NCBI GenBank assembly: GCA_023053545.1
Contig: JAKZAN010000004.1
Span: 10,168,001 to 10,232,000, forward strand
Reading direction: 5' to 3'
DNA length: 64,000 bases
Source: Lepidurus packardi
Lineage: Eukaryota > Arthropoda > Branchiopoda > Notostraca > Triopsidae
Shown here: piece by piece, positions 3,200 through 25,859 of the stretch
How positions within the stretch are numbered: position 1 is the stretch's first letter
Layout: each line of letters opens with the position of its first letter
The notes under the pieces: generated by a model
What the model saw: the letters and a program-made list of their open reading frames with translations, nothing else
Databases searched by the model: none
What the model was told of the DNA's origin: nothing
Program-made: the position numbers and the translations under genes

Positions 3200-3755
3200 A
3201 AAAGGGGGGTGGGGTGACATGCTAGTAGAAAGTTTGCTCTCATCCCGAGATTCTTGGCATTTGAATTTTGTTTTCCAGTATTTTTACTATTTTTTTCACA
3301 TTAAAATTAGTATTAAATGTATCAACAGTCTTTGAGTTTATTGGGGTGATGAAAGTTAAATTAACTAAAAATGCTTTTTCGTTTTCGCCAAAAGAGGGTG
3401 GGCTGACATGCTAGTAGATAGTTTGCTCTCGGCCCGAGATTCTTGCCATTTGAATCTGTTTTCCAATATTTTACTAATGTTTCCCATTTAGATGAGTATT
3501 AAATGTATCAACAATCTTTGAGTTTATTGGGGTGACGAAAGTAAAATTAACTAAAAATGCTTTTTCGTTTTCGCCAAAAGGGGGTGGGGTGACATACTAG
3601 TAGATAGTTTGCTCTCGGCCCGAGGTTCTTGCCATTTGAATCTGTTTTCCAATATTTTACTAATGTTTCCCATTTAGATGAGTATTAAATGAATCAACAG
3701 TCTTTGAGTTTACTGGGGTGACGAAGGTTAAATTAACTAAAAATTCTTTTTCGTC
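3200..3755 (+). repeat. Three tandem repeats (about 182-190 bp) abutting a splice acceptor
   Basis: Units begin near 3207, 3397 and 3580 with a GGGTGGGGTGACAT-like core and share the phrases TTTGCTCTCGGCCCGAG and TCAACAGTCTTTGAGTTTA. Each unit ends in a T-rich CTTTTTCGTTTTCGCC segment. The last unit ends CTTTTTCGTCTTCTAG, the functional acceptor of the first visible CadN exon. Confidence 0.85.
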
Positions 3756-3761
3756 TTCTAG

Positions 3762-6700
3762 TGACCAAATTTATCCGGATTGGCATCGCAGACAAGAACG
3801 ACAACCCGCCGTACTTCGATAAAGCCTTGTACGAAGCTGAAGTGGACGAAAATGAGGATATCCAACACACTGTGCTCACCGTTACTGCGAAAGACCTCGA
3901 CGAATGTAAGTCATTTTACTTTACTTCAGAATCTTTATTTCTGCATCTTAATTCAGCATGTATAAGCTAAAAAAAAACCGTTAGAAATGTGAAGATTCAA
4001 AAAAATAATGAAAACACCATCTGGCGGCAGAAATGTGAGGTTTTTGCTCTATCCCAAAGTGCAATTTAACTCACATTTTTTTCTTTTTTTTGGGTGGCGG
4101 GGGGCAGAATGGAGGTGAAAAGAATCTGAAATAGGACATTTTCTTTTTTGTGGGGGGGGGAAGAGGGGTTTCATTTACTTTTTGGAAGAAGTTGAAAGCG
4201 TTCCACTGCTTCGTTGGCTCCTGTTTTTCCTTTCGGGAGCAAATCGAGAAAGAAGCGGGACATGTATAGAGTTCCTAACCTAGTTTTGCTGCAACGTTGG
4301 GCATTCCACTATTTTTTATTATTTTTTTGGCATTTACTTGGTGAAGCAGGAGATGGAACAGTAGCATAAGACGAGGAAGAAAGGGGGAAAGAGAGAAAAA
4401 GAAGGGGAGAACGACATGAAGCCTCTCTTAGTTTCTCAAGCGAATTGAATGGAAAATGTGGGAACTTTTTATGCAGAGTGTATCATATAGCGACAGAAGA
4501 GACGCCTAAAGTGTTGATTTGAGAGGCTTTATGTTTTCTCCACAACTCTGGAAAAAATCGTAAAAAATAAGTACACGAAAAGTTTACTTGCTCTCGAGTT
4601 GTTTGGGTGTGCTGGAGATTTTTTGGTGTTTTTTGTTTTTAAGTACTGGACTTGTTCCTGGAGGCACCTCGAGCTGTAGAAATATCTAGCCATCCAAGCT
4701 CCAAGCGAGTTAAATGGAAAACAAGTTGGAAGCCCCTTTTTTTTTTTTTTTTTTTTTTCTGGAGTTTCTTGTTGGGCGTAAGAGATCTATGCTTAGGGAT
4801 GGGCGAGAAGAAGCGAGGGCAAGTAATTAATGGGAGTAGCAAGTACAGAAACACTTCTTAAGAGGGGAGGGATAACCAGTAAATGTAAATACCAGTATTT
4901 TGTTCTTTTTTTTGAGGAGGAGGAGCTTAAAAGAAGCTTAAAAGCTTAAGAGTGGGTTACTGTTTGGTATGCTTCACACGCGTACTTAACAAAGTCAGAT
5001 GTGCGGGTGCGGGGGAACGGGTTTTAGAGGGGTGGCGGTAAAGGCTGGAAGTTACGGGCCGAACTTGAGACTGGGCGCGACTGGTTAAGTAAAGTTGACG
5101 TTTTAGGGCTAATGTCGAGCCGGGAATGACCCAAGCTAAATGCCTTGGTGTCGACTGTCGAGCGAGAGTTTTATGGGGGGTCTGCGAAGTTTATTAACTC
5201 TGTATTTTATTTTTTTTCTCTTCTAAATTTGTTTTGTTTAGCGTCGAGGATTCGGTATGAAATCACCCGAGGAAATCTGGGCGGAGCGTTCGCGGTGAAG
5301 AACATGACTGGCGCGATTTACGTGGCGGGGCCTTTAGACTATGAAACTCGCAAACGAGTAAGTTTTATTTCTATTTTATTTCTATTTTTTAGTATTGTTA
5401 TACTTTGGTCATTTTTTTAAAGGCAAAGCTGGTTTCCTTATTCGGGGTGTCTGAAGGAGGTATAGATTTTTTTTTAGAAGGGATTTGAATGTATTTTGCA
5501 AGGCTTTTCAGGCGTATTTCCTTTTGAGGAGTTGGAATTTAAGAGTTGGGAACTTTTCTCCGATTTCTAAGATTCTCTCCGGTTCTTCTAATCTTCTAAG
5601 ATTTCTCCGATTTCTAAGATTCTCTACAACATTTCTCACTTTTCTGCTCTTGATCAAAAGATCTTGAAAAAAGGAAGAATTTAGGGCAAAAGTGTTGAAC
5701 ATATTTTTGCCGTGTTCGTGCTGTTGCGGAAAATTTGTTGCAAAAAGTTCGTTTTTACGGACCATAAAAAGGGAGGAGCCCTTTGAAGCGAGAAATTTGC
5801 CGTTTTTTTTTTTTTTTTTTTTTTTTTTAAGTTAAATGAACGGTGTGAGCAAAGGTGGTTATGGTAGGTAAACTCATGTCGCGTTAGCGTTTAGTGCATA
5901 CATTGTAAAGTTTTGTTCAGCTTTTTGTTCACTTTATCTAAAAGTGGGGGATAGTAAGGATAACGGTTTTGAACTTCTGGTTTTTCGAAAAAAAAAAATA
6001 AGTTCGAAATTTTGGGGAAATTAATGTTAGGGTTTCCAGTTTCCAAACGTTAACAGTTTTCGTGTTATTAACGATTGCGACAATTATGAATTTTGGCTTG
6101 TGTTCTTCAAATTACCGTCTTTAATTAGCTGATGACTGATTACAGCGGAGAGGTTCTGCTTTCGTAATTCCCGTCTAAATATGCAGCGAACCTAGACAGG
6201 GTTTGGCGTGCGGAATGGCCTGCATTGCCGTGCGGAATTGCTTTGAGGATGAATTTGCTGATTGACAAAGTCTTTTGTCTTTCTATGGGGTTTCTCATTA
6301 TTATTCTTGGGGTGGAAAGGAAAGAGAATTAACATGAGCAATAAACAGGAATGAGTGAGTTTGAAGGAAAAGGCTTTTAAAGCTAGCAATATCCTGCAAC
6401 TTGAAAGTTGACTTTTCACTTGGAAAGGAAGCTGGCTGCATAGATTGTTAGTTCGGCTCTTTTTTTCATTTTGATTCATTTCCCGGGAGATTCACAATAA
6501 GCTTAAATTTCCAGCCAAATGAGAGATTTATACACCATTTTGCTTAACAACACGTTGCCTAGCCAGCAGCTCCTCCTTTTAGCTAAACTTGTTGAAAGAG
6601 AAGCTGCGTGTTCCGGATTTGTATTGAAAGACCCCCCAAAAAGCGAAAAAAAGAGAAAGAGGCAAAGGGAAAGAAACCTTTTTATTAAACGAATGAATTG

Positions 6701-9700
6701 GGGGCGTAATCTTTCAACAGTACGAGTTGCGATTGGTGGCGTCGGATAACTTGAACGAAAACTACACGACGGTGGTGATCCACGTGAAAGACGTCAATGA
6801 CAACCCGCCAGTTTTCGATCGACCCACGTACGAGACTCAAATCACTGAAGAAGATGATCGCAATTTGCCCAAACGCGTCTTACAGGTGCTTTACTTCATT
6901 GCCAGCAAGCTCCGCCCACCTCCGTCGCACTCTTTTCGTTGTATTCGTAGTCGCACGATTGTTTGGGCTCATGCAAATCCACGCTTTGTTTGTTGTACGT
7001 TTTGAGTTTTCATTATGCATGATTTGTCTTGTTTTTTTCTTTGTTTTCTTTTGCACCTGCAAGTACGAGTTGACTTTGGTAGCCTCCGATAGCTTGAACG
7101 AGAATGTTACCACTGTAGTGGTCCATATCAATGACGCCAATGATTTGCCGCCCGTCTTCAATCAATCGCTTTATGAAGCTGCACTCCTGGAAGAATCCAC
7201 CCAACCCCTCCCTCGAGTCCTCCTCCAGGTCCGTTTTCATCCCCATCCCTTTTTAAGGGGAAAAAAAAAAAAAATTTTTTTTCAAGAAAATTTTTTCCCC
7301 CAAAAGTTTCTGTTTATTGCACGGAAGGCATGGAAAGGGAAGGTGGTAGTGCATGAAGTCAGTCCGAACCCGTTTATTTATTTATTTTTGCAATTGAGCA
7401 CTTTAGACTAGATTTAAAAAAAACAACAAAAAAACTTATGTTTATGAATGTCGTTCCAGGTGACGGCAACAGATGGCGATAAAGATCGGCCTCAGAATAT
7501 CGTTTATTTCTTGACGGGCCAAGGAATTGATGCTGACAACCCCGCCAATTCCAAGTTTGATATCAACAAAACCACTGGAGAGATTTACGTGCTCAAGGTA
7601 ACATCCCTCCTTTTGCAGTCCTCAAAAAAAATCTAAAAAATTGAATGCTTTGCTTGGCTTGAATGCCCATAAATTTTCAAGTGTTCAATTTCCTGAAGAT
7701 TTCTCTTTTTATTCACTAAAAAAAAGATTAAGACACATAGAAATATAGTGTGGCTGGTCGTTTATAGCTAAGGAAAGCGATGGCAAGATCTATAGAGTTG
7801 GTTTATACTGTGTTGTATTTTTCCAGCCACTGGACCGCGATCAACCTAACGGACGTCCCCAATGGCGTTTCACGGTGTTTGCGCAAGATGAAGGCGGGGA
7901 AGGCTTGGTTGGTTACGCGGATGTGCAAGTCAACTTGAAGGATATTAACGACAACGCGCCCATTTTCCCCCAGGGCGTCTATTTTGGCAACGTGACGGAA
8001 AACGGCACTGCTGGTATGAAAATAATTTTTGGCTGGTATAAAAAAAAATCAAGTAAAATGGGAAATAGTTTTTCTTCATCCAACGTTATTTTTGCTCGTT
8101 TCCCGATAAAGAGTGGAGGAGAAAGGGGATGAGAGAAAAAAAAAACTCTAATAACATTTTTAGAATGGTAGAATTGACTTTTTTTGGTGTGTTTTTTTGG
8201 GTCCTTTCCCACAGGAATGGTGGTGATGACCATGACAGCCGTGGACTATGACGACCCTAATGAAGGCACCAATGCCAAGCTGACATACTCGATAGAGAAA
8301 AATGTCATCGATGAGAATACGGGCATGCCCATCTTCGAAATTGAACCCGAAACGGGGGTTATCAAGACGGCAGTTTATGGCCTGGACCGCGAGAAGACGC
8401 CTGATTATTCCATTCAAGTTGTCGCCATGGATGGAGGAGGCTTGAAAGGTAATAAAATAGACGACATAACGGATGTTGTTAAAAAAAGATAATAAGAAAC
8501 ACCAAACAATCCCATACAAAAGTTGATTGGAAACTAAAAGTTTCCAATTTTTTATTTTTTTATTTTTTGGGCGAATTTGTTTTTTGTTACTTCATTCCGA
8601 GGAAAGAAGCGAATGAACTTAAACTCTTGGTAACTTGTATGTGTATATTTTCGTAATTGGATTGGAAAAATTGGATTGGAAACTAAAAATTTCCAATTTT
8701 TTTTTTTTATTTTTTGGGAAGGTGTTTTTTATTACTTAATTCCGAGGGAAGAAGCGAATGAACTTAAACTCTTGGTAACTTGCATGTATATTTTCGTAAT
8801 TGGATTGGAAAAGTTGGATTGGAAACTAAAAATTTCCAATTTTTTTTATATTTTGTGGGAATGTGTTTTTTATTACTTAATTCCGAGGAAAGAAGCGAAT
8901 GAACTTAAACTCTTGGTAACTTGTATGTGTATATTTTGTTGGGAAGGAAGGCCTATCTATTTATCTTATTTTTTGGGGGAAATATTTTGAGTTTTTTGTG
9001 TGTTGAGAGAAGCTGTTTGTCGGGAGAGGCAGTTATTAATTGCTCCATCGCTACATTAGAGATAAAAGCGATATTGGGAGAATTTTCCATCTATTTTTTC
9101 GGGCATGTGTGTTTTTTCCGTTTGCTCAAGTAGAATATTGTGTTAGCTTAGAAGGATGCAGAAACGGAGTTGCGTTGTTTATGGGAATTTCTGGGGAATG
9201 GAATTGGGAAATCGAGATTGCAGATTGGTCGGGCTGTCATCCGCAAACTTTACTGTTGGAAGTTTTTTGCTAGACATTTGATTAATTTTGCGGATGTTCG
9301 CGAATTTGTGGAACGGGCGAAATTGATTCCATGCATAAAACCATGCTTTTTTTTAGAGTATATTCTTAGACTAGAAAGAGTGAAATCCAATTTTTTTCCA
9401 ATTTTTTTCCAATTTTAAGGGTTTGGAAAGAGACGTTGGGGGATTTTAGCACAGGAAGTTGCTAGCTTCCGGTGTAAGTGGCTTGCTAAAATTGTCGGCC
9501 TTTTCCTCGCTGTTTCTGTGAAGCGAAGCGAGCTTTCTTTTCATTAATGAGAAATGCAAACAATGCTCAAACTACAGGAGTTTTTCCACGCAGCGATTGT
9601 CTACAAGAATCTGTGTTGTGTTTACGAGGATATCGTGCACTTTAAAGATACAGTATGATGCCGCTTTTTGTGATCACTGGCTATTAGAATCAACCGCTTT

Positions 9701-11689
9701 CTCGAATCCAGTTTTAAAGGGCCGATTCAAAGTGATAACATTCACAGTATCTTAATCGGTTATTAGAATCACACTTTCGGATATTAGAATCGATTACAAA
9801 AGAATTTTCATGTGCAGTAACGAAACTTCAGTAGTGATTGCTACGTAAACTTTGCATATTGACCAATGACATTTGCTTTTACGTCATTTTGTCATATCAT
9901 GTTATTTCCAGTCTACTTAGGGCAAATCCCTTCTAAACTCCCAAGTCAATTAAATGAGCAGGTTATTCTATTGAATGACCAGTTCCTTGAATTGACTGGG
10001 AAAATTAGAAGGGAAATCGTGTTGAGAACCCTACCTAAGCGTAGGAGAAGGCTTCAAAGGGGCGGTGTTAGTTGTGTTTCAGACGCGTGGTTATATAAAA
10101 ATGGTGACGAAGAAGAAAAGAGGTGGTTTAAATGTAAAAGAGAAGTTGCGGCTCATGGGAAATTATGACAAGTTAAAGTTAAAAGATTTGCCACAAAGGG
10201 AAGCGGTCGTTAAGTTAGGAATCTCTCAATCATCTCTATCAAAATTGTTGATAAGTTACGAAGTAACGAACGAAGTTCATTACGAAGTAAACAATAGTGG
10301 TTATAGTGAATTTACAAAAAGGTAAACATGCGGGAAAGTAGGAAAAAGTAGGCAATGCTTTGTTTCTTTGGTTTAAACAAGCCAGTTCGTTTCACACGCC
10401 GATTAATCGTAGCATTCTATTACATATTTCCGATTTTCTAGTAGAATCTCCGCTTAATAGAATGAATATTTACTTGACAAACATAATCACAATAAGGGGC
10501 ATATACTGTAAACTGTAATTAAACTTTCTATGAATGTATTTCTTGAAGAAGGTACCCAAACGAGCTATATTTTGTTATTTATTAGTCTAAAAACAAATAT
10601 AGGATCTACCCTTGTTTTTCTTTATAAGTTAGGAAGTAACGAACGAAGTTCATTACGAAGTAAACAATAGTGGTTGTAGTGAATCTAGAAAAGGAAAACA
10701 TGTGGGAAAGTAGGAAAAAGTAGGCAATGCTTTGTTTCTTTGGTTTAAACAAGCCAGTTCGTTTCACACGCCGATTAATCGTAGCATTCTATTACATATT
10801 TCCGATTTTCTAGTAGAATCTGCGCTTAATAGAATGAATATTTTCTTGACAAACAATCACAATAAGCGACATATACTGTAATTAAACTTCCTATGAATGT
10901 ATTTCTTGAGGAAGGTACCCAAACGAGCTATATTTTGTTATTTATTAGTCTAAAAACAAAGATAGGATATACCCTTGTTTTTTTTTTGTTATCTTTATTT
11001 TAATTAATTTTTTTTTGTATTTTTAGGGACGGGAACGGCTTCGATTCGAGTGAAGGATATTAACGATATGCCACCGCAGTTCACTAAAGCCGAATGGTAC
11101 ACCGAAGTAGATGAAACGGACGGCTCAGCGTTGCCAGACACGCCGATTTTAACGGTGACAGTCCACGACGAGGACGAAACCAACAAATTCCATTACAAAG
11201 TGATGGAAAGTAGCGGTTTTGGAGCTGATAAGTTCACCATGGTCCGGAACTCGGATGGGACGGGCTCCCTGAAAGTCGTCCAACCCCTCGATTACGAAGA
11301 TAAACAGCAACGTAATGGATTCCGCTTCATGATCCAAGTCAATGACAAAGTAAACACCTCAACATGCCCTTTTGTTGTACCCAATAGCTCACTAAAATGG
11401 GGTCATTTTCTGCTCTTTCAAGGGTGAAGATAACGACAATGACAAGTACCATGTCGCCTACTCCTGGGTGAATGTGAAATTAAGGGATATTAACGACAAC
11501 AAACCGGTTTTTGACCGCGCAAACATTGAAACTTCCGTTTATGAAAACGCCGAAGTAGGAAAATCGTTGGAAACCTTCCGCGCCACAGATCCTGATCAGG
11601 TAAAAATTGGATTTGAGGGTTTCGTGTGGGGAACATAAAGGGAGGATCTGTCTTGTCCTGAGGAATTGAAAAGCGAGGGAGCTTAAAAC

Positions 11690-17700: not shown

Positions 17701-20672
17701 TGGGACCCAGTGGGGACAGGCGACAACTTCCCATAACGTTCGAAAGCACTGTCCTTCTAATAATCCTTGTGCCAACGTTATTTGTCCGCCTCCGTTTGAA
17801 TGTAACGACCTTTGGATGGACTACGAATGCAGGTAAGTGACATGCGTTCCCAAAATCGATTGCAAAAAGAAAAGACTCGGGCAACATCTTTAAACTGTTG
17901 AATGATTTCGACTATCGATTAATCTCCATCTAACACTCGAAACGTTAGTTATGAAATTGGGTATACGAGATCAATTTTCATTTTTTTTTCGTTCGAAATC
18001 TATCTTATTCAAAATTTTCATTCAATTTCTTATTCGAAATCAATCTTATTCAAAATTTTCATTCAGTTTCTCATTCGAAATCAATCTTATTCAAATTTTA
18101 GATTTTTATGAGCGGGGCCTCGAAGAGTACCTTTTTAATATCGTTGAAATCGAATTTACTAGATAATAGCGATTTTAGTATCGATATTTAGTTTTATATG
18201 GATACCTATTTTAATATCGGTATTTACTTTGACAGCGTTTTTAGTATCGATTGTTAAGTATATATTTACTTTAATATCAGCCTGGTCTGTCGTAACGTGA
18301 CGGATCCGTCACTTTAGGAGCTGAGGCAAATTTGACCGAAACCCATATCAAGTCAAGACCGAATACCTCCTCACACCCCTGTAAATCGATTTATAACCTG
18401 TTTATATCGAAACCATTTGTTACTTTCAAAATGAACTTGACGACTAGTGAAAACGAACATGGCGAACATGAAGAAAACAACAATGAAAGTAGACTTCCGA
18501 AGAAGATAAGAACGTTACGAGATTGCTCAAACTAACCTAACCTAACGTTCTTTGTTTGTGCCAACGTAAAGTGAAGAGCTCGTTTTGTGTTTATCTGGCA
18601 CCACCGTCAGGGGCTGTGAAGTGCTATTCGGTCTGAACTTGATACCGTTTTCAGTAAAATTTGCCTCAGCTCCCTTCAGGAGACTGACGGATCCGTCAGT
18701 TTACACGACAGGCCAAGTTCTTATATGGATGCCTATTTTAATATCGGTATTTACTTTGATAGCGTTTTTAGTATCGATTGTTAAGTGTATATTTACTTTA
18801 ATATCGACTATATGCGAAGCTAAGCAATCGATTTATGGTACATCACTTTCTATGATCGATATTTTCAATATTTAGATTTAAAATCAAAACTTTCTCAACG
18901 TAATGGGAGCTTATTGCTTACATCGCTTAACTCAATAAGTAATCATTTCTAGATGGTCGTTTTCGACATTTTAACTGAAAAGAAGCTTCCTGGATAGTCT
19001 TGTATCTGTAGTGACTCATTGTAATGACAACTTAACATTTCTGGGAATCTTTTCCACACCTTTGTGTTCTCTTCTGCTTTGGTCTTGCGGGAACGGCTAT
19101 AAAACAGTTGTGGAGAGTCAAAGATCATGACAGCTGATGGAAAAGGCTGCGAAGATCGGAATGAATGCTTGGGCAATCCGTGTCTCAATGGGGGAGTGTG
19201 TATTAACCGAGAACCTTTCTACATCTGTGCATGCCCTGAGGGCTTTTCGGGTGATAACTGCGAACTTTTACAACAAGGACAAATCGTTCGATTGTCCATG
19301 GGCGCTCTAGCGGCTATTCTCGTCTGTTTACTCATAATTCTCAGTAAGTTCTCATCTTTCCTCCACTTTCCCCCACTCTTTTCATGTCTTTACCCCTAGT
19401 CAGCATGGTTTATAGTTACACGCATGTGCATGTTAGAAAAAGTCGACATTTACTTCCAAAATTCCGCCCGGGTCAACTCTGAAGCGTCTAAGACAGAAAC
19501 AGTACGTATATTGTGAGGTTGTTGCAACTTTTTTGTTCGTTTTTAGTTGTCCCGAAGGGCAAGAAATCTGGGGATCCAATTGCCGGGATGTCAATGAGTG
19601 TTTATTGTATCGGCCATGCGTCAATGGCGGTACTTGTATAAATTACCAAGACGCCCGCCAATACGAATGTTTATGTCCCAGCGAGTATATGGGCCGCCAT
19701 TGTGAATTAGCTTCCTTACCCAGTACTACCCTGACCACCTCCACCGAGTTCATTGTTACTGTCATCGTATGCTTAGCAGTCTTGCTCAGTAAGTGTTGAT
19801 GTTTTTTGAGTTTGAACTGTCGCTTGTTTATCCCCTGCAATTTTACATTTTTAGTCAATTTTAATTTTCTACATTTTTTCCCCCGTATATTGAAAGGAAT
19901 TCATTTCGTGTTTTTCGCAGTTATGGTGCTCATCTATGTGGTTTACAACCGGAGAAGAGAAGCCATCGTCCGGTACCCGGGTCCTGATGATGACGTCAGA
20001 GAGAACATCATCAATTATGACGATGAAGGGGGTGGGGAAGACGATATGACCGCCTATGATATAACTCCTCTACAAATTCCTATCGGTGGGCCCGGAATGG
20101 GTATTCCTTTAGGATTAGGTCATGATCTCAAAAGCGGGAAGATGTCTTGTAAATTCCTTTGTTTATTATTAGATCTGACCCAATTTTTTACTGAAATTTT
20201 TGAATAAATAGACACACGGCCACCAATGGTGGGTTTGGCAGGAGAACCCAATGTAGGCGTGTTTATCGACGATCATAAAAAACGAGCGGATAACGATCTC
20301 AACGCACCACCTTACGATGATTTAAGGAATTACGCCTACGAAGGAGGCGGTTCTACTGCTGGTTCCTTGTCTTCCTTGGCTTCAGGTAAGGATTATCGCC
20401 CCTTTCAGTCTTGTTACCATAGTCTGAATTGTTAGATTAGCTTTCAAATGTGGAATTTGACATTTCAAAGAAGGCAATTTGCATTTCAATGAAAATGAAA
20501 CGATTTCTGTACTAATTGGGAATCCTTTGTTTTACTGCCAGGCACAGAAGACGATGAACAAGATTACGATTACTTGAATGGATGGGGGGTGCGGTTCCAG
20601 AAACTGGCGGATATGTACGGCCATGGGGAGAGTGAAGAAGAAGGCGAAGGGGAGGAGGACCTTGGAGAATGA
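3762..20672 (+). CDS. CadN: N-cadherin (CadN), 3' part of the gene
   Basis: Classical cadherin of the arthropod N-cadherin type, a homophilic adhesion receptor linked to catenins. Exons: 3762-3905, 5242-5357, 6721-6885 or 7064-7228, 7460-7597, 7827-8013, 8215-8448, 11027-11349, 11423-11599, 11754-11882, 11970-12243, 13307-13679, 13959-14127, 14206-14412, 14886-15363, 15422-15564, 16652-17832, 19108-19343 or 19547-19788, 19921-20148, 20212-20385, 20542-20672. One isoform gives about 1734 residues here. Seven cadherin linker motifs are visible ([54 protein letters not shown], and the degenerate DVNDNK). They are followed by the non-chordate membrane-proximal region, an EGF domain, laminin G, EGF, laminin G, an EGF plus transmembrane exon, and a tail with the p120/beta-catenin-type stretches [11 protein letters not shown] and [17 protein letters not shown]. 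The first exon starts in phase, so the N-terminal repeats and start codon are outside the window. Confidence 0.97.
6721..6885 (+). CDS. CadN: CadN alternative ectodomain exon, version a
   Basis: A 165-nt, 55-codon phase-0 exon beginning [19 protein letters not shown] and containing the calcium-linker motif DVNDNPPVF. It corresponds in position and sequence to exon 7 of fly CadN, which is known to have mutually exclusive 7a and 7b versions. Acceptor TTTCAACAG and donor CAG/GTGCTT are clear. It lies 178 bp before the paralogous exon at 7064-7228 and is identical to it at about 32 of 55 residues. Confidence 0.92.
7064..7228 (+). CDS. CadN: CadN alternative ectodomain exon, version b
   Basis: A second 165-nt, 55-codon exon of the same phase, beginning [19 protein letters not shown]. 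Acceptor CCTGCAAG and donor CAG/GTCCGT flank it. Including both versions would duplicate one half of a cadherin repeat, so one of the two is expected per transcript. Its linker motif reads DANDLPPVF instead of DxNDNxPxF, so an asparagine of the calcium site is replaced by leucine. The length and phase match to 6721-6885 is exact. Confidence 0.9.
8522..8940 (+). repeat. Three tandem repeats (about 145 bp) in a CadN intron
   Basis: Units start near 8522, 8671 and 8814 with TTGGATTGGAAACTAAAA and share AGAAGCGAATGAACTTAAAC and CTCTTGGTAACTTG. Each unit begins with the short hairpin TTGGAAACTAAAAGTTTCCAA. No coding potential is apparent. Confidence 0.85.
9651..10325 (+). mobile_element. Truncated pogo/Tigger-like transposon (5' end)
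   Basis: A TA dinucleotide is followed by CAGTATGATGCCGC, a pogo/Tigger-style terminus, at 9651. A frame from the ATG at 10101 encodes about 74 residues beginning [19 protein letters not shown] and continuing with a helix-turn-helix ([13 protein letters not shown]). This matches the N-terminal CENP-B/pipsqueak DNA-binding domain of Tigger transposases. The frame stops at 10323-10325. No DDE catalytic domain follows, so the copy is dead. It lies in the 2.6-kb CadN intron 8449-11026. Confidence 0.7.
9815..10050 (+). mobile_element. Left part of a CAGTAACG-family MITE or transposon
   Basis: The segment starts CAGTAACGAAACTT and shares about 230 bp of patchy similarity with the complete element at 53308-53600, including CAGTCTAC, CTCCCAAGTCAA, AAATGAGCAGG and CCTACCTAAGCGTAGG. 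No right end was found nearby. It appears nested in, or fused with, the Tigger-like element. Confidence 0.55.
10251..10990 (+). repeat. 373-bp direct tandem duplication
   Basis: Two head-to-tail copies begin ATAAGTTACGAAGTAACGAA (10251) and ATAAGTTAGGAAGTAACGAA (10624). They stay close to identical for about 360 bp with only small changes. The first copy starts inside the Tigger-like reading frame, so the duplication happened after the transposon inserted. Confidence 0.9.
11693..11746 (+). repeat. 54-nt T homopolymer upstream of a CadN acceptor
   Basis: An uninterrupted run of T that ends seven bases before the acceptor GTTTAG of the exon at 11754. It acts as an extreme polypyrimidine tract in a 154-bp intron. 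The length is prone to sequencing error. Confidence 0.9.
14448..14790 (+). repeat. Two diverged direct repeats in a CadN intron
   Basis: A unit containing TTTAAGACGTCTA and GGACGTTTGGATTGTATTTAA-like text occurs at about 14451 and again at about 14664, a spacing of roughly 212 bp, with moderate divergence. No coding content. Confidence 0.65.
15890..16600 (+). repeat. About 151-bp tandem repeats filling a CadN intron
   Basis: Units marked by AATTGAAAAGTAAAGCTTTC at 16150, 16301 and 16453, preceded by one or two more diverged units from about 15890. Each contains GGAATTTATCCTTTAGATAT and TTCTAGACTGTAATAG. The array occupies most of intron 15565-16651. Confidence 0.85.
17993..18101 (+). repeat. 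43-bp tandem repeats
   Basis: Nearly three copies of a unit containing CGAAATCAATCTTATTCAAA and ATTTTCATTCAATTTCT, in the intron before the alternative transmembrane exons of CadN. Confidence 0.8.
18280..18713 (+). mobile_element. MITE with long inverted ends in a CadN intron
   Basis: The left end (GCCTGGTCTGTCGT, then a GACGGATCCGTC palindrome, then GGAGCTGAGGCAAATTT) is mirrored at the right end (AAATTTGCCTCAGCTCC, GACGGATCCGTC, ACGACAGGCC). The arms are about 60 bp with small indels. The flanks are copies of a roughly 90-bp direct repeat (18189-18280 and 18720-18806), so a short target duplication cannot be told apart from that repeat. No transposase is encoded. Confidence 0.75.
19108..19343 (+). 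CDS. CadN: CadN alternative EGF/transmembrane exon, version a
   Basis: A 236-nt exon that completes the AG left by 17832. It encodes [20 protein letters not shown], then an EGF-like domain ([13 protein letters not shown]), then the transmembrane segment [17 protein letters not shown]. The transmembrane segment closely matches fly CadN exon 18a. Acceptor AAAACAG and donor CA/GTAAGT are clear. It ends with one nucleotide, as version b does. Confidence 0.92.
19547..19788 (+). CDS. CadN: CadN alternative EGF/transmembrane exon, version b
   Basis: A 242-nt exon of the same phase as 19108-19343, encoding [18 protein letters not shown], an EGF-like domain ([14 protein letters not shown]) and a different transmembrane helix, [15 protein letters not shown]. 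The two versions differ by two codons in length. They are separated by 203 bp, too close together for much regulatory sequence. Joining both would encode two membrane spans, so mutually exclusive use is expected, as known for fly exon 18a/18b. Confidence 0.92.

Positions 20673-22954: not shown

Positions 22955-25859
<2,905 letters not shown>

Follow-up and report, generated by a model that had tools for sequence, protein, structure and literature searches.

A probable ME-13 pair of mutually exclusive exons in the N-cadherin gene (CadN) of Lepidurus packardi

The 64,000-nt stretch of Lepidurus packardi DNA analysed here (the window, in whose coordinates all positions are given, negative ones lying 5' of it) contains part of one long plus-strand gene that fits reading frames from about -18.6 kb to 20.67 kb, the upstream frames having been read in four 10-kb stretches 5' of the window. 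Pfam analysis of the encoded protein revealed cadherin repeats and the domains Ig_Shg, EGF and Laminin_G, together with a PF01049 tail, and a transmembrane segment is also encoded. The gene is CadN, a type III DN-cadherin, and the original prediction had named it correctly. Fifteen mature ECs were counted by eye from their linkers in the separate frames, starting from the match with the neural-cadherin chain 3ubh, whose last repeat corresponds to the one encoded from about -8146. This chain represents Drosophila EC1-EC4. The end of the match fixes the EC numbering and therefore places the ME-7 exons at the EC7-EC8 linker and the exon 13 pair at the EC10-EC11 linker. Introns of the gene include repeated stretches, recognised as alike open frames and similar to each other at 3265-3411 and 3682-3819, just before exon 11, and nearly identical at 10342-10515 and 10714-10878. 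The downstream neighbour (22955-24000) resembles by eye a protein arginine methyltransferase of PRMT7 type.

Two tandem exons of this gene, both of 165 nt and phase 0 and bordered by AG and GT, were found exactly where they had been predicted, with the predicted identity of 32/55 residues and the predicted 178-nt intron between them; at the nucleotide level, 101 of 165 positions are identical. Their coordinates and those of other features of the locus are presented in Table 1, under the exon names for which the reasons are given below. The junctions 5357-6721, 5357-7064, 6885-7460 and 7228-7460 are all compatible with the gene model, and the products in which exon 12 is spliced to either exon and then to exon 14 are both free of stop codons.

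Table 1. Features of the CadN locus in window coordinates; functions of the RBFOX-like and CELF-like motifs are putative.
Feature	Position	Strand	Description
Constitutive exon 12	5242..5357	+	Ends LDYETRKR; donor CGA|gtaagt
ME-13a	6721..6885	+	Mature EC10 (second half), Ca2+ linker DVNDNPPVF to EC11, beginning of EC11
ME-13a splice sites	6721..6885	+	Acceptor with 8/16 pyrimidines, bottom of constitutive range; weak donor CAG|gtgctt
Intron between 13a and 13b	6886..7063	+	178 nt; TTTGTTTGTTGT at 6985 (CELF-like), TGCATG at 7016 (RBFOX-like)
ME-13b	7064..7228	+	Same half-repeat region as 13a; linker DANDLPPVF
ME-13b splice sites	7064..7228	+	Ordinary acceptor; weak donor CAG|gtccgt
Intron downstream of 13b	7229..7459	+	GCATG at 7328, TGCATG at 7350 (RBFOX-like)
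Constitutive exon 14	7460..7597	+	
ME-7a	-4895..-4705	+	191 nt, 63 aa
ME-7b	-4437..-4247	+	191 nt, 63 aa
ME-18a	19108..19343	+	236 nt; EGF and start of transmembrane segment
ME-18b	19547..19788	+	242 nt; EGF and start of transmembrane segment

The similarity between both exons exceeds the general likeness of cadherin repeats, because their BLOSUM62 local score is 169 and the maximum reached in 2000 shuffles of the second exon was 47, and because seven other CadN half-repeats are identical to either exon at 8-15 of 55 residues. This ungapped comparison, carried out in the DxND register, included ME-7a and the repeats downstream of it. The best near-full-length gapped match of the first exon to another repeat reached 36.7% identity over 60 columns, compared with 58.2% for the pair. 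The values of dN (0.38) and dS (1.93, near saturation; NG86 method) give a dN/dS of about 0.2, as is expected from the sequences of two constrained coding exons. When the protein encoded by the first exon and exons 14 and 15 was searched against the genome, at least 25 matches were obtained at E<=1e-10, none of which revealed a second exon pair of this kind. Five of these matches are in the CadN gene, where they comprise both exons, the exons next to them and a repeat further upstream, and the other 20, with 30-43% identity, are in other parts of the genome; all counts are lower bounds. A tblastn search of the introns 5358-6720, 6886-7063 and 7229-7459 (E<=1) detected no third copy. Pfam recognised no family in either exon alone, and matches were obtained in the spliced context. 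None of 17 pattern matches in viral contigs scanned for relatives was confirmed.

Three mutually exclusive exon pairs have been reported in arthropod N-cadherin, ME-7 with 63 aa, ME-13 with 54-55 aa and ME-18 with 68-70 aa (PMC2655722). The original prediction had recognised an exclusive pair, which both anatomy and homology support, and had equated it with exons 7a/7b. This label was wrong, since the exons encode 55 aa and the true ME-7 exons are found some 11 kb further 5', beyond the window. Both pairs are tandem CadN half-repeat exons and their internal identities are comparable (32/55 versus 35/63 residues), and to this extent an ME-7 reading has something in its favour. Against it, a pair with the published ME-7 length occupies the upstream position, and 3 of the 6 insect ME-7 oligonucleotides, after translation, selected that pair (VTVGTVV and RENVTVGT the 7a exon, YGPIFI the 7b exon); the other three matched best elsewhere, and none of the six showed a strong match to the exons at 6721-7228. 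Length, position and oligonucleotide matches together rule out the 7a/7b identity, which can be regarded as practically negligible.

An ME-13 identity is indicated by the same kind of test, in which oligonucleotides published for insects (PMC2655722) were translated into short fragments and matched against the exons. Three of the four 13a fragments matched the first exon best and the fourth tied, and the Drosophila 13a sequences QITEEDD and PKRVLQV and the Tribolium 13a sequence EEDDRNL are identical in this exon. Among the four 13b fragments, all of them short, none preferred the second exon over the first, and the second exon is therefore called 13b because of its place in the order and by exclusion. 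Both exons are flanked in the expected order by the ME-7 pair upstream and the ME-18 pair downstream. The pair thus resembles the arthropod ME-13 described in PMC2655722 in gene, flanking order, length, linker region and the 13a residues QITEEDD and PKRVLQV. Taken together, both exons are very probably the orthologues of arthropod ME-13a and ME-13b, with one of them used in each mRNA; this high confidence covers the identity and the exclusive use of the pair, and the activator considered below stands outside it.

The linker of 13a fits the motif DxNDNxPxF, which has been reported in all ME-13 exons of the genomes described in PMC2655722 as a trait rather than a definition, and that of 13b departs from it at one position, an N-to-L change within 7130-7160 with respect to the published ME-13 exons. 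The 13b exon also differs from that of insects in the GATGCAG element, which was reported for insect 13b in a set of 15 insects (PMC3303723) and is absent here. In the ME-7 pair the EC7-EC8 linkers depart as well (VDRNNKPPLW and VDRANNPPIW), and this linker of DN-cadherin has been predicted to be a partial Ca2+-free linker (PMC8325961). The ME-18 exons encode 78 and 80 whole residues and are somewhat longer than the published ones. The Drosophila 18a probe gave 30 with 18a and 28 with 18b of L. packardi, and the Drosophila 18b probe 30 and 31; the corresponding values were 29 and 18 for the Tribolium 18a probe and 10 and 7 for the Tribolium 18b probe, so that only the Tribolium 18a probe separated both exons well.

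The splice sites of the exon 13 pair are weak. The donors of 13a (1.4) and 13b (2.7) scored below all 18 constitutive donors analysed (3.9-12.3), and among the acceptors (2.2-17.6 in constitutive exons) 13a reached no more than the constitutive minimum, 2.2, and 13b 6.7. Consensus was one guide in setting the borders of the constitutive exons, and their scores are flattered by this. The acceptor of the first exon is the weaker one in each of the three pairs (7a -0.9 and 7b 0.0; 13a and 13b as above; 18a -7.4 and 18b 9.3). In this gene exclusive exons need not have weak donors, since the donors of 7a (7.3), 18a and 18b (5.2 each) are within the constitutive range. The reading frame is kept whether 13a and 13b are both omitted or both included, so that frame-based surveillance cannot enforce exclusivity and the control acts on splicing; a frame shift as the cause of exclusivity is ruled out, both aberrant products being in frame.

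Several other explanations of the pair have been weighed. Steric hindrance in an intron that is too short and a mismatch between U2 and U12 splice-site classes are known ways to achieve exclusivity (PMC3585155), and the original prediction had singled out the 178-nt intron for its shortness. This length is nothing unusual in CadN, whose model includes six shorter constitutive introns (59, 73, 78, 87, 92 and 154 nt). Two of the four YTNAY-like sites in the 178-nt intron are normally spaced, one being 85 nt from the donor of 13a and 93 nt from the acceptor of 13b, the other 126 and 52 nt. A scan of 6880-7470 revealed no U12-like motifs. The shorter constitutive introns and the lack of U12-like motifs in this interval therefore make both mechanisms very improbable, and they were rejected on these grounds. 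Competing long-range pairing of intron RNA through a docking site and selectors, as described for beetle Dscam1 (PMC8042237), is unlikely, to a slightly lesser degree. The duplex energies of all five intron pairs fell within those of 100 shuffles (z from -0.40 to +1.02), in a single-genome test that covered 300 nt at each end of the upstream intron, the middle intron and the downstream intron, and the middle intron folded no better than shuffled sequences, 181 of 200 being as good. It might also be that one exon is a decaying, unused duplicate: in 13b the donor (gtccgt) is unusual and the linker motif is altered, and the honeybee is reported to have lost its 13b (PMC2655722). This is nevertheless highly unlikely in view of the open frame, the equal length and phase, the dN/dS of about 0.2 and the ordinary 13b acceptor.

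The preferred explanation is that 13a and 13b would be used exclusively through competition between weak, regulated splice sites, with 13a predicted in neural and 13b in mesodermal tissue by analogy with insects. The protein region exchanged by this choice would run from the C-terminal half of EC10 through the calcium linker between EC10 and EC11 to the first strand of EC11. In the default state, exon 12 would be spliced to 13b and the weak 13a bypassed; in neurons, an activator would boost 13a and lower 13b, an RBFOX/CELF pair being the leading candidate. The locus offers named sites at which the 13a/13b choice may be controlled, and the evidence from it makes it unlikely that this choice is enforced by the length of the intron, the class of its splice sites or frame-based surveillance.

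The motif analysis on which this candidate is based was carried out on short flanking introns in full and on up to 300 nt of long ones, in comparison with 15 stretches of constitutive intron that may contain unmodelled exons. Near the exclusive exons, GCATG occurred 6 times in 2211 nt, versus 12 times in 20758 nt of constitutive intron (P 0.005, uncorrected); it was the seventh best 5-mer there and one of 12 splicing patterns tested. Within this panel an excess was found for GCATG, TGCATG, CELF-type and GTGTG patterns, to which, for the last two, a single GT run downstream of 7b contributed. Enrichment near the exclusive exons was not significant for the remaining eight (PTB, MBNL, two STAR, TAGGG, poly-T, G5 and paired YCAY). 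When each intron was compared with its own shuffles, poly-T was in excess in the introns upstream of 13a (21 versus 4.7 expected) and downstream of 7b (11 versus 1.5 expected), the latter also with an excess of GTGTG. GCATG was enriched upstream of 7a, downstream of 13b and in the 18a-18b intron, and CTAAC weakly so upstream of 18a. In the three inter-exon introns pooled, TGCATG was observed twice and expected 0.21 times (P 0.02), with P 0.15 for the 13a-13b intron by itself, and the inter-exon intron of ME-7 contains no GCATG. According to fold prediction, the TGCATG at 7016 is base-paired to the CATGCA at 6970. The CELF-like TTTGTTTGTTGT occurs only once in the CadN span and, as a unique 12-mer, carries little weight. 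The 203-nt intron between 18a and 18b has three GCATG, two of them within GCATGTGCATG (19422-19432). A Pfam Fox-1_C search gave no match in the host genome, nor in the controls of the search, and is uninformative for this reason.

A comparable layout has been reported for exons 7a/7b of unc-32 in Caenorhabditis elegans, where 7a is selected in neurons through its weak splice sites together with a CELF site located between 7a and 7b and UGCAUG in intron 7b (PMC3585155). The L. packardi pair is similar in its weak first exon, in the predicted neuronal use of this exon, in the UG-rich inter-exon element and in UGCAUG after the second exon, a placement that in unc-32 depends on how the intron names of PMC3585155 are taken. 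It differs in that the gene is unrelated, the regulators are guessed from motifs alone, and an additional UGCAUG is present between the exons. Some role of RBFOX/CELF in the 13a/13b choice, as candidate activator, is a tentative possibility that arose post hoc from these motifs. The more specific proposal, that RBFOX and CELF would switch the exons through UGCAUG at 7016 and 7350 and the UGUU-rich element at 6985, that RBFOX sites at 19403-19432 would couple the 18a/18b choice, and that the code would be ecdysozoan-wide, is rather doubtful. If it were true, one ancient splicing code for exclusive exons, laid out as in exon 7 of nematode unc-32, would be common to ecdysozoans.

The ME-13 pair is an already known system, described for one crustacean as well. 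All three exclusive pairs with the same organisation have been described in Daphnia pulex CadN (Hsu et al. 2009, PMC2655722), and the duplication was placed before the parting of insects and Daphnia in the same work. The proposal that the splice choice predates insects is right insofar as the pairs are older than the insect-crustacean split, but it is not new, since the D. pulex pairs were published in 2009; what changes here is the name of the exons. The description of the choice as adhesion-tuning finds no support for exon 13, the 13a and 13b isoforms having rescued the lethality of fly mutants alike, and Hsu et al. favour a role of this choice in the timing and place of CadN expression (PMC2655722). 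In bead aggregation assays, EC1-EC10 was the minimum and EC11 strengthened aggregation (PMC8325961), and exon 13 is therefore at the edge of the adhesive unit. This position and the DANDLPPVF linker of 13b give a structural ground for the adhesion question despite the equal rescue.

A second, shorter classical cadherin gene of this genome is located on the minus strand of contig C3 (C3:5154508-5160364), with Ig_Shg and a PF01049 tail. Seven EC linkers were recognised in it, mostly in open frames of at least 45 aa, and further N-terminal repeats are possible. Its sequence has the type IVa layout, which is reported from hexapods, branchiopods and copepods, and as in Daphnia pulex, with its type III Dp2-cadherin, the genome carries both a type III and a type IVa classical cadherin (PMC5473995). 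The homologue of exons 13-14 is one open frame, and no second exon 13 copy was found among the frames listed around it; the duplication is therefore not seen in the type IVa paralogue. As an outgroup, this E-cadherin of the same genome is about equidistant from both exons, with 23 identities and a score of 71 to 13a and 21 and 73 to 13b.

Many COX1 pieces with in-frame TGA are present in the assembly (contigs C1, C2, C4, C5, C6, C21 and C38) and are possibly nuclear copies of mitochondrial DNA, and stop-free COX1 frames in contigs C43, C52 and C214 are possibly of bacterial origin. Whereas the 18S rRNA of Daphnia pulex has been called unusually long, the 18S rRNA gene of the host genome has an ordinary length of 1754 nt.
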